64,000 nucleotides of DNA from Candidatus Saccharimonadota bacterium (lineage in GTDB: Bacteria > Patescibacteriota > Saccharimonadia > Saccharimonadales > Saccharimonadaceae): positions 124,001 to 188,000 of the forward strand of contig JAFRKK010000010.1 of assembly GCA_017431745.1 (NCBI GenBank), in the 5' to 3' direction. This document shows positions 12,341 to 47,092 of this stretch, one piece after another. The translations under genes were made by a program, and so were the position numbers. Numbering within the stretch: position 1 is the first letter of the stretch; each line of letters begins with the position of its first letter. Under the pieces are notes generated by a model. It saw nothing but the letters and a program-made list of their open reading frames with translations. It searched no databases and had not been told where the DNA came from.

Positions 12341-12420
12341 GGACTTTCTTTGTAAAGAAAGTCCAGCAAAGAAACTTTAGCAAGAAAAACGAATTGGAAG
12401 TGAATTCCAATTCGTTTTTT
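12341..12420. repeat. Two-hairpin cassette, subfamily D, with terminator
   Basis: Hairpin 1 is GGACTTTCTTTG-TAAAGAAAGTCC (12341-12364). Hairpin 2 (12387-12420) has the apex GGAAGTGAATTCC, arms ACGAATT/AATTCGT and a T-run. The spacer AGCAAAGAAACTTTAGCAAG is echoed at 19800. It probably terminates the DHH gene. Confidence 0.75.
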
Positions 12421-19779: not shown

Positions 19780-19856
19780 TTCTTTTCATAAAAGGGAAGT
19801 TTAGCAAAGAAAACGAGTTTTGTAGCTAAATCGGAATTCACTTCCGATTTAGCTAC
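19780..19856. repeat. Two-hairpin cassette, subfamily D, between surface genes
   Basis: A CTTTCTTTT...AAAAGGGAAG stem is followed by AGCAAAGAAAACGAG and then a perfect 15-bp hairpin, GTAGCTAAATCGGAA / TTCCGATTTAGCTAC (19822-19856) with loop TTCAC. The apex GGAATTCACTTCC is the reverse complement of the apex at 12396-12408, but the stems are unrelated. Confidence 0.8.
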
Positions 19857-41456: not shown

Positions 41457-41491
41457 AAAATTAACTTGGAAGTAGATTCCAAGTTAATTTT
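41457..41491. repeat. Single hairpin with conserved GGAA...TTCC apex
   Basis: AAAATTAACTTGGAA / TTCCAAGTTAATTTT is a perfect 15-bp stem with loop GTAGA. The apex GGAAGTAGATTCC is one or two bases from the apices at 12396 and 19833, while the stem is unrelated. It doubles as a terminator, directly before the radA promoter. Confidence 0.75.
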
Positions 41492-44431: not shown

Positions 44432-45988
44432 GTGATTTTTACTATCACGAAGAAGTTGATGAAGCGCGCTGGGCTGATGATGATTATAATGCTTAGCGTG
44501 ATTTTTAGTGTGGTGGCAGGAGAGGTAAATGGAGTTTGGGCTACAACTTCTACGCTGACCATTAGCGTAACAGATAGCGTATCTCTCAACATCCTCCCTA
44601 ACGGCACAACTGGCACCTTTGCCACTTCAGACACTAGTACTAATAATATTAGTGTTAGTACCACTAATGGTACTGGTTATACACTAGGCATTAAAGCCAG
44701 TACAGAAGGTAGTAACGCCCTAAATGGAGCAAATAGTACTAGCATCCCCTCCCACACCATTACATCAGGCGTTAGTGAAACTAACTATAATGATGATACC
44801 TATGCCTCTACTAATAACCTAAATAATACTTGGGGTTATAGACCAAGTAAACTAAACTCCACAGCAAACTCTAACTATCTCCCAGGCCCTACTAGTGCTA
44901 GTACAGCTATCACTCTAGATAAGACTACTTCAGCTAACCCATCTACAGCTAATAACTATAATCTAGCTATTGGCGTAAGAGTTGATGGTAATACTGTTGC
45001 AGGAGCTTATTCTAATACCTTTATCATAACCGTAGTAGCTAACCCATCAATCTATTCCATCACCTACAATAAGAACACTACAGACACCGTATCAGGCATG
45101 CCAACTAACGTAGTAAACCAAGAAACATCTAGTGAAACAGTCACCCTAGCAAATAATACTCCAACTAGAACTGGCTACACTTTCCAAGACTGGTGTACAG
45201 TACAAGTAGCAGACGGAGCTGATTGTACTGGTACATCCTACTCGGCTGGTGACAACTGGACTATTGACCAAACACAAGCCTCAAATTCTCTGTCGCTATA
45301 TGCTAGATGGAAAGCAAGTACTAACCAATACTGCACTAACTGGGCCACCTGTATGCAAAATACCGAAACTCCACCAGCCTGCGGTACTACCATGACTGAT
45401 GGCCGTGATGGTAATACCTACACCACTGCCACTATAGGCAGTAAATGCTGGATGACCCAAAACTTAAGGTTTAACGGCACCGAACTTAAAGTAGGAGAGT
45501 CAAATGTCACTAGCAACATAACTATATCACAGTATTATAGCTTAGATTCAGCCGATTCAAGCTATGCTAACCATTGCGATAACACCAATGGTTACAACTA
45601 TCCTTGCATCAAGACTTCAACTGACACTAATTATGGTACCTATTACAACTATTGTGCAGCCAGCGCTAATGAAGTCTGTAATAATAGCCAACAAAAAGAT
45701 GCATCCAGAAGCGTCTGCCCAGCTGGCTGGACCTTACCTACCCAAGCAAACTTAAATGCAGTACCTCAAAAAGATTCCCACTTTACAGCCGCTGCCGGCC
45801 TCGCCGGGATCTACAACAGCGGTTCGCTGAACTACGCTGGCACGGGCGGTAACTGGTGGGCCTCTACAGCAGGTAGTGCTACGAGTCAGTACAGCCTCTA
45901 CTACAGCAGCGACAACGGCGGCTTCTGGCGCGTCAACCGCTACTACAAGTACCGCGGGAGTTCAGTTAGGTGTGTTAGGGCTGCTTAG
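44432..45988 (+). CDS. FISUMP-domain surface protein with a possible hypervariable C-terminus
   Basis: The 518-residue product starts at GTG behind AAAGGAGG, with a signal peptide (about 1-38). Then come a Thr/Asn/Ser-rich beta region (about 40-210), an InlB-type repeat (about 212-290: SITYNKNTTDTVSGMP, GYTFQDWCT, LYARWK) and a FISUMP domain (about 315-518: TDGRDGNTYTTATIGSKCWM, then GNWWASTA and the ending SSVRCVRAA). Base use is unlike neighbours: C-rich, G-poor codons for most of the gene, then an abrupt switch near 45790 to GC-rich codons (GGC, TAC, AGC, AAC, CGC). It is a likely surface ligand-binding protein. Confidence 0.75.
   Translation: MIFTITKKLMKRAGLMMIIMLSVIFSVVAGEVNGVWATTSTLTISVTDSVSLNILPNGTTGTFATSDTSTNNISVSTTNGTGYTLGIKASTEGSNALNGANSTSIPSHTITSGVSETNYNDDTYASTNNLNNTWGYRPSKLNSTANSNYLPGPTSASTAITLDKTTSANPSTANNYNLAIGVRVDGNTVAGAYSNTFIITVVANPSIYSITYNKNTTDTVSGMPTNVVNQETSSETVTLANNTPTRTGYTFQDWCTVQVADGADCTGTSYSAGDNWTIDQTQASNSLSLYARWKASTNQYCTNWATCMQNTETPPACGTTMTDGRDGNTYTTATIGSKCWMTQNLRFNGTELKVGESNVTSNITISQYYSLDSADSSYANHCDNTNGYNYPCIKTSTDTNYGTYYNYCAASANEVCNNSQQKDASRSVCPAGWTLPTQANLNAVPQKDSHFTAAAGLAGIYNSGSLNYAGTGGNWWASTAGSATSQYSLYYSSDNGGFWRVNRYYKYRGSSVRCVRAA
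45793..45970 (+). other. GC-rich segment resembling a DGR variable repeat
   Basis: This 3' part of the FISUMP gene is GC-richer than the rest and full of NNC codons for Tyr, Ser, Asn, Asp and Arg (residues ...SLYYSSDNGGFWRVNRYYKY...). A perfect 12-13-bp hairpin (46027-46054) follows the stop. In diversity-generating retroelements the variable repeat lies at the end of a ligand-binding domain with a hairpin downstream. No reverse transcriptase or template repeat is visible here. Confidence 0.35.
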
Positions 45989-46026
45989 GCTCGCGCCCTC
46001 CTGTCCTCCACCGGACGAGTGAGTGA

Positions 46027-46054
46027 GCCAATATGAAATACTTGTATTTCATAT
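46027..46054. repeat. Perfect hairpin downstream of the FISUMP gene
   Basis: CAATATGAAATAC / GTATTTCATATTG with 2 unpaired bases (or 12 bp with a 4-nt loop). A second small hairpin, AGACGC-AAA-GCGTCT, lies near 46074-46088. It could be a cruciform, terminator or homing hairpin. Confidence 0.7.
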
Positions 46055-46123
46055 TGCGAGCCACGAGGAACGGAAGACGCAAAGCGTCTACCGGAGAAAC
46101 TTTCGTTCTGGCCTGGGGTTGGA

Positions 46124-47092
46124 TTAGGTGAGGGGGAGGTGGGTGATTTTGAGGGAATCTGGGTTTTCGAGGTTGCCAGTGACAGAGGCGGCGGCGAGGA
46201 GGGGCTCAAGGTTTTTGAATTTAGCGTTTTGATATTTGAGATAGCTTAATGCTGCAAATTGCATTTGTTGGTGTTTTTCTTTTGTGATGGCGTCTAGTGG
46301 TGTGCCGTGAATGCTGGATTTGCGGTATTTTACTTCAGTGAAATAAATGTAGTTGTCTTTGGTAGAAATAATATCAATTTCGTAAAAATGGGTTTTGTGA
46401 TTTTTTGCAATGATGGTGTGGCCGAGGTTTGTTAGATAATCTGCGACGGCTTGTTCGGCTTTTTTGCCAATAGTAGTAGTGTTTTTATGAATGGGTTTGA
46501 TGGGTTCAAAACCAGAAAGAGATTTACAAGGCTCGAAGGATTGGCGATGTTCGGGGGTGAGGCCATATTGATAGATGGCTTCGACGTGGGATTTAGTGCC
46601 GTAGCCGACGTGGTTGTTGAATCCGTATTTTGGGTATTTTTCGGCAAGTTTAATCATATAGTTATCTCGAGCGACTTTGGCGATGATGGAGGCGGCAGAG
46701 ATTTCGCGAATTTTATTGTCGCCTTTGATGCAGGTGGTGGTGAATTTTTCTAGCGGAGTGTTCTTTAGAAAGTTGACTTTGCCGTCGATGATAATCTGGG
46801 AAAAAGGCGTGTGAAGCGATTGAACTTGCTTCACGGCTTTTTTGGTAGCGAGGATGAGGGCTTTTGAAATGCCGAGATTATCGAGCTGATTTGCGGAAAT
46901 CCAGCCGAGGCCGGTGGCGGAATTTTCGAGAATCAACTTGTTTAGTTCTTCACGTTTTTTGGCGGTGAGTTTTTTGGAGTCTTTAAGTTCGCTGAACCAA
47001 GGTTGTTCTGTTTCGGGGAGGATTACGGCGCCCACAACAAGCGGGCCCGCCAAGGGCCCGCGTCCAACTTCATCGATACCGAGAATTGCCAT
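46124..47092 (-). CDS. rnhB: Ribonuclease HII fused to a YraN-like nuclease domain
   Basis: Residues 1-200 are RNase HII, which removes RNA primers and misincorporated ribonucleotides: ILGIDEVGRGPLAGPLVVGA, ELKDSKKLT, IIIDGKVNF and SIIAKVARD carry the acidic site. Residues about 205-322 are a YraN (UPF0102) domain: GKKAEQAVADYLTNLGH, YEIDIIS and YFTEVKYRKS show the E-(x)D-ExK layout of a PD-(D/E)XK-like nuclease. In most bacteria these are adjacent genes (rnhB-yraN); here they are joined. It overlaps rplS by 1 bp. Confidence 0.9.
   Translation of the reverse strand: MAILGIDEVGRGPLAGPLVVGAVILPETEQPWFSELKDSKKLTAKKREELNKLILENSATGLGWISANQLDNLGISKALILATKKAVKQVQSLHTPFSQIIIDGKVNFLKNTPLEKFTTTCIKGDNKIREISAASIIAKVARDNYMIKLAEKYPKYGFNNHVGYGTKSHVEAIYQYGLTPEHRQSFEPCKSLSGFEPIKPIHKNTTTIGKKAEQAVADYLTNLGHTIIAKNHKTHFYEIDIISTKDNYIYFTEVKYRKSSIHGTPLDAITKEKHQQMQFAALSYLKYQNAKFKNLEPLLAAASVTGNLENPDSLKITHLPLT

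Follow-up and report, generated by a model that had tools for sequence, protein, structure and literature searches.

A putative remote DGR target at the 3' end of a FISUMP surface-protein gene in a Saccharibacteria genome with two DGRs

The FISUMP-domain surface protein gene analyzed here ends in a variable-repeat-like segment, VR2, which, as read from its sequence, carries the footprint of a diversity-generating retroelement (DGR). VR2 is probably a remote DGR target that was written in the past by a TR1-type template since lost or diverged; the gene looks once-written or stranded, and present rewriting is not claimed. It lies in the window, by which we mean the whole 64,000-nt stretch of DNA that was analyzed (C1:124001-188000), and our searches covered the assembly to which the window belongs (744 kb in 13 contigs, 97% complete and not closed).

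The gene end and its differences from TR1

The gene (44432-45988, + strand; positions given without a contig are those of the window) appears in the open reading frame listing as a protein of 518 aa from a GTG start, with an alternative ATG start at 44462, and its C-terminal residues are SSVRCVRAA. A profile search matched the protein to TIGR02145 (Fib_succ_major) at 55.7 bits, over the cut-off, in agreement with the sequence-only reading of it as a FISUMP protein. The AlphaFold model of the gene end was too poor (pLDDT 42) for a C-type-lectin fold around VR2 to be read from it, and the domain is known from the TIGR02145 match; we infer a ligand-binding role for this end. The same reading had described an abrupt switch to GC-rich codons over the last ~60 codons, which the codon counts bore out. 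Counted back from the end, codons 62 to 8 had a GC3 of 0.80 and a C3 of 0.59, compared with 0.34 and 0.29 for the remainder of the gene; two-fold C/T codons ended in C in 19 of 22 cases in the gene end versus 56 of 132 elsewhere in the gene (p=1e-4; all p-values given here assume independent sites, and several of the tests were made on the same repeat and are hence mutually non-independent). No 55-codon window of this gene ending upstream of its last 60 codons had a GC3 above 0.55. The reading frame and the NNC codons were intact, and no inactivating change was observed.

VR2 (45789-45988, + strand), which contains the GC-rich NNC codons, is homologous to TR1, the template repeat of the DGR1 cassette described below, and to VR1, the repeat of the DGR1-adjacent target. 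It is the best remote match of TR1 in the genome (78% over 182 nt, E 2.8e-38). VR2 differed from TR1 at 27 of the 60 sites with adenine in TR1 and at 20 of the 143 non-A sites (p=6e-6), although this A-site excess in VR2 alone could partly reflect selection on surface residues, since the adenines lie mostly at positions 1 and 2 of AAC codons. Fifteen of the 19 AAC/AAT codons of TR1 were changed at bases 1-2 in VR2, while the third base was kept in 18, and both AAT codons had become NNT. Where codons were changed at bases 1-2, the third base was kept in 14/15 between VR2 and TR1 versus 33/79 upstream (p=4e-4), the upstream figure being taken from the alignment of the VR1 and VR2 genes ahead of the repeat. 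Likewise, codons for the same amino acid were identical between these two genes in 27/30 cases in the repeat and in 95/174 upstream (p=2e-4). Codon bias was rejected as the sole cause of this silent-site preservation, as permutation within residues predicted 18.5 identical codons of 30. Third bases were retained in only 1/14, 3/15, and 3/11 codons of the FISUMP paralogues that lack the GC switch, so the preservation is not a property of the FISUMP domain. The A-directed signature anticipated at the gene end was thus observed.

These comparisons bear on two other explanations. In the first, the VR1 and VR2 genes would have diverged as ordinary paralogues: GC-rich codon use at the end of the gene, together with positive selection on codons for surface residues, would explain the repeat, and nothing would have retrohomed into the VR2 gene since its duplication from the DGR1 target. 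The VR2 gene is indeed a paralogue of that target (75% aa identity over 217 aa), and its non-A divergence could be ordinary post-duplication mutation. However, such divergence predicts equal decay along the gene, whereas the repeat was preserved better than the upstream region in both comparisons, and the codon-bias permutation failed to account for the silent sites; we therefore regard this explanation as improbable. In the second, gene conversion would have imported the repeat from another FISUMP gene, itself a DGR target. About 26 FISUMP genes are available as possible donors, and conversion would homogenize silent sites too; however, no near-identical VR was found elsewhere in the genome (VR1 at about 76-78%, the next best at about 75%), and conversion would have carried the variable codons along, while VR2 and VR1 differ at 27 of 59 A columns as compared with 20 of 141 others. 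This makes it less probable still. Recombination with another FISUMP gene, which had been offered as the alternative to a DGR, is thereby weakened for want of a near-identical donor in the genome, and retains a place as a possible route by which the repeat arrived.

DGR cassettes and FISUMP targets elsewhere in the genome

The profile search found two RVT_1 genes over the cut-off in the genome, both outside the window: RT1 (C1:103127-104263), on the same contig and ~65 kb upstream of the VR2 gene, and RT2 on contig C6. The cassettes to which they belong, DGR1 and DGR2, are alike in gene order, with a FISUMP target, an accessory gene (267-305 aa), the RT, and then a TR on the opposite strand directly after the RT. 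RT1 matched the solved chain 8ub7_A (E 4.5e-24), from an entry titled as a DGR ribonucleoprotein, and both RT1 and RT2 matched phrog_1423. TR1 and VR1 showed 19 mismatches over 202 compared positions, all at adenines of TR1 and none at the 143 non-A positions. TR2 and VR3 showed 21 mismatches at A and four others; the first six aligned bases hold three of these four, and all four lie near the edges of the repeat or in its first third. The genome therefore has two complete DGRs. The sequence-only reading was correct that neither an RT nor a TR is present inside the window, and the genome-wide search that it proposed found them elsewhere: two RVT_1 genes, with RT1 matching a DGR structure, and TR1 as a homologous template. 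A genome with no DGR RT or template, which it had named as evidence against a DGR, was not what we found.

Profile searches of the accessory proteins returned no family and no sequence match. In an AlphaFold model of relatives of the accessory protein (pLDDT 83), residues ~175-286 matched Avd in 4dwl (Z 14.5) and 8ub7 (Z 14.9), scores that are to be read as a match of fold and gene order only, as helical bundles can score fairly high by chance. The accessory protein is thus predicted to have the Avd fold in its C-terminal half. Ahead of this half, the accessory protein (L049:9144-10001 and homologues) has an extra N-terminal part of ~170 aa, whose motif pattern recalls a MutS-like first domain, with no match in Pfam.

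Relatives of RT1 in named genomes were all from Candidatus Saccharibacteria, several of them from ruminant guts, and an RT1 relative was present in 94 of 174 genomes of the genus. In 25 of the 27 distinct loci with a TR/VR pair near the RT, the TR directly followed the RT and lay antisense to it, the exceptions being L115 and L055. In the DGR loci of the genus (L097-L126, L002, L055), the target either precedes the accessory gene or lies on the far side of the TR. Inverted TR layouts are known from DGR surveys (PMC6642488); no description of the antisense-TR layout in Saccharibacteria was found in the literature searched, a search outside which the main CPR DGR paper falls.

Two further FISUMP genes, both on contigs other than that of DGR2, fit TR2 as trans targets: C10:22919-23554 (repeat L060, C10:22919-23104) and C1:59386-60021 (repeat L061, C1:59389-59571). 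The former differed from TR2 at 16 of 54 A sites with no internal non-A difference, and the latter at 24 of 58 A sites with one internal non-A difference; the remaining differences of each lie at the repeat edges. Codons for the same residue were identical to those of VR3 in 39/39 cases in the repeat versus 116/200 upstream for the C10 gene, and in 34/36 versus 114/204 for the C1 gene. These patterns indicate that DGR2 writes in trans in this genome.

The 744-kb genome contains about 26 FISUMP genes (loci L010-L047). Five further FISUMP genes bear a TR2-type footprint, with 14-20% divergence at non-A sites, and the gene at C11:29221 bears a TR1-type footprint at 16%; together with VR2, these form a graded series of divergence. 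Several FISUMP genes that are not exact targets also have GC-rich ends and differ from TR1 or TR2 with a bias toward A sites. We tentatively propose, as a possibility on the less likely side, that the ~26 genes constitute a shared repertoire of surface variation in a reduced epibiont genome, of which the two DGRs write several members in trans, and that the decayed repeats, including VR2, form a layered record of earlier templates, which later diverged or were replaced by others.

The template of VR2 and the 3' flank

TR1 was rejected as the direct template of the present VR2, on account of its 20/143 non-A mismatches, a 3-nt insert in VR2, and a diverged 3' end. A perfect match at non-adenine sites has been used as the criterion for trans activity (PMC10907252), and TR1 is by this measure not the current template of VR2. 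Identity between the two declines across the final ~30 nt ahead of the stop codon, and no IMH-like 3' end common to TR1 and VR2 was found. The VR2 3' end at 45962-45988 (+ strand; TCAGTTAGGTGTGTTAGGGCTGCTTAG), where identity to TR1 falls away, is nearly common to a gene of another species (G124), the VR2-type 3' end sequence being TCAGTTAGGTG.GTTAGGGCT; it is a candidate IMH-like region of another template lineage. The near-identical template expected by the sequence-only reading was thus not observed, while a homologous one, TR1 at 78%, is present in the genome. No better template for VR2 was found in the assembly or in the 174 genus genomes, no third RT was found in the assembly, and viral contigs yielded no relatives of the target or of the RT.

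The closest relatives of VR2 are two genes in G124, the best of them 80% identical over 201 nt. Both are closer to the VR2 3' end than is that of TR1, and one of them also has the 3-nt insert. Codons identical at silent sites between VR2 and these two genes amounted to 25/30 and 26/34 in the repeat versus 56/115 and 55/119 upstream. No RVT_1 gene was found in G124, a 99%-complete genome, and its FISUMP genes are probably stranded DGR targets. G124 has four related FISUMP genes (L068, L079, L082, L086), at least two of them with VR-like ends.

Since TR1 fails as the direct template and no closer one was found, we read VR2 as the product of a lost or diverged template. A DGR reverse transcriptase would have copied a TR1-type template RNA, placing random bases opposite template adenines, and the mutated cDNA would then have been written into the 3' end of the FISUMP gene. 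The outcome would be NNC codons varied at their first two bases, with the third bases of the template and the framework codons retained. The writing template may have been an ancestor of TR1, or a third, lost lineage that is also reflected in the VR-like genes of the second species. The writing in trans and the subsequent loss or divergence of the template are, in this sequence of events, what we infer.

Alternatively, VR2 might be a currently active remote target, whose TR lies outside the assembled sequence or is carried by sister strains. The intact frame and NNC codons of the gene would fit such activity, as would a 13-bp hairpin kept at the expected offset after VR2 (see below) and the apparent writing in trans by DGR2 in the same genome; the G124 genes, in their resemblance to the VR2 3' end and, in one case, the 3-nt insert, further suggest that a distinct template lineage probably existed. 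We nevertheless consider present activity unlikely, because neither a third RT in the assembly nor a matching TR in the 174 genus genomes was found, and the species with the closest VR-like genes was itself without RVT_1. The reading of VR2 as a target written in the past is therefore preferred. With regard to the original proposal of a DGR target at the gene end, the RT, the homologous template, and the A-directed footprint were found, and the near-identical template was not.

The perfect hairpin reported after the stop codon was confirmed at 46029-46056 (no strand; CAATATGAAATA-CTTG-TATTTCATATTG), with a stem of 13 bp, which drops to 12 bp when a loop of 4 nt is imposed. It begins 40 nt from the stop codon, and a GC-rich hairpin follows VR1 at 39 nt. 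The 46029-46056 hairpin is AT-rich and has no T-tract; it was not called by terminator prediction and was rejected as an intrinsic terminator, and also as a repeat element, being single-copy in the genome. The RT-adjacent targets of the Saccharibacteria DGR group often carry a hairpin 33-46 nt after the stop, with sequences that are unrelated to one another, and a hairpin at +25-50 past the stop was present in 9 of 25 RT-adjacent targets versus 5 of 72 background ORFs (p=0.001). No hairpin at a comparable offset was found in the DGR2 targets, including the adjacent one. The 46029-46056 hairpin is thus a candidate target-recognition hairpin that a DGR may use, although it is AT-rich, the DGR2 targets are without one, and gene ends have hairpins for other reasons. 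The target hairpin of BPP-1 follows a structure-not-sequence rule and is of a GC-rich type (PMC3240598); the offset observed here fits that rule, whereas the AT-rich composition is unlike the GC-rich type.

Farther downstream, a second, smaller hairpin of 6 bp is located at 46075-46089 (no strand; AGACGCAAAGCGTCT), and the segment at 46087-46118 (+ strand) has a homologue immediately after VR1 (84% over 32 nt, C1:102158-102189), suggesting that the 3' flanks of the VR1 and VR2 target genes are related. The gene at 46124-47092 (- strand) encodes an RNase HII-like protein, apparently fused, as judged by eye, to a C-terminal YraN/UPF0102-like nuclease domain. Three long hairpins with a 15-bp stem and a 5-nt loop also occur in the window (12385-12419, 19822-19856, and 41457-41491); each contains the core GGAAGTRRATTCC as such, its complement, or a closely similar version, and together they constitute a recurring structured element.

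Implications and comparison with known DGR systems

Cultivated Saccharibacteria live on host cells, and in view of this lifestyle a set of surface proteins that can be rewritten is a candidate tool for attachment or evasion. Our data indicate that the DGRs of these very small genomes reach past the adjoining gene, as a single template in this genome fits genes located on two other contigs, and a set of older FISUMP repeats bears the same DGR mark without a fitting template. They also provide a simple test for stranded DGR targets, in which third codon positions are better kept than in the flanks, whereas the first two positions are scrambled.

The literature search joining FISUMP with retroelement returned no paper, although "Fib_succ_major" does occur in DGR papers. 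It is listed as a DGR target domain in human microbiomes, with nine proteins (PMC4159848), and the parts of that paper that we consulted do not report a large paralogue family within one genome. DGRs are enriched in CPR genomes, and the cellular CPR DGRs form RT clade 2 of Roux et al. 2021 (PMC8144416); RT1 and RT2 are likened to this clade as cellular CPR DGRs. By its own statement, that survey would not detect remote targets (PMC8144416).

The Saccharibacteria DGRs resemble that of Bordetella phage BPP-1 in the A-directed TR/VR relation, the DGR-type RT, the predicted Avd-fold accessory protein, the position of the VR at the 3' end of its target, and a hairpin after the VR, here a candidate for the same role. 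BPP-1 is a single-locus system, whereas the DGRs described here have a TR antisense to the RT, an extra N-terminal part in the accessory protein, and targets also on other contigs. Thiohalocapsa PB-PSB1 likewise has several DGR loci, with some trans targets matched by a TR elsewhere at all non-A sites and others with no matching TR (PMC10907252). It differs in that its targets are putative conflict-system sensors and its diversification was seen in metagenomes (PMC10907252), whereas the present analysis covered one genome per species.

In Treponema denticola, one RT/TR core serves several target genes spread over the chromosome, and some targets, either persisting in isolates devoid of this core or fitting a different TR type better than the resident one, were read as leftovers of lost DGRs (PMC4891356). 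The remote or leftover targets scattered away from the core are the point of likeness to our genome (PMC4891356). The T. denticola system has an HRDC accessory gene and lipoprotein targets (PMC4891356), whereas the Saccharibacteria genome has a predicted Avd-fold accessory gene, FISUMP targets, two DGRs in 0.74 Mb, and a TR convergent with the RT. Taken together, the VR2 gene is best read as a further member of this known class of remote or leftover DGR targets.
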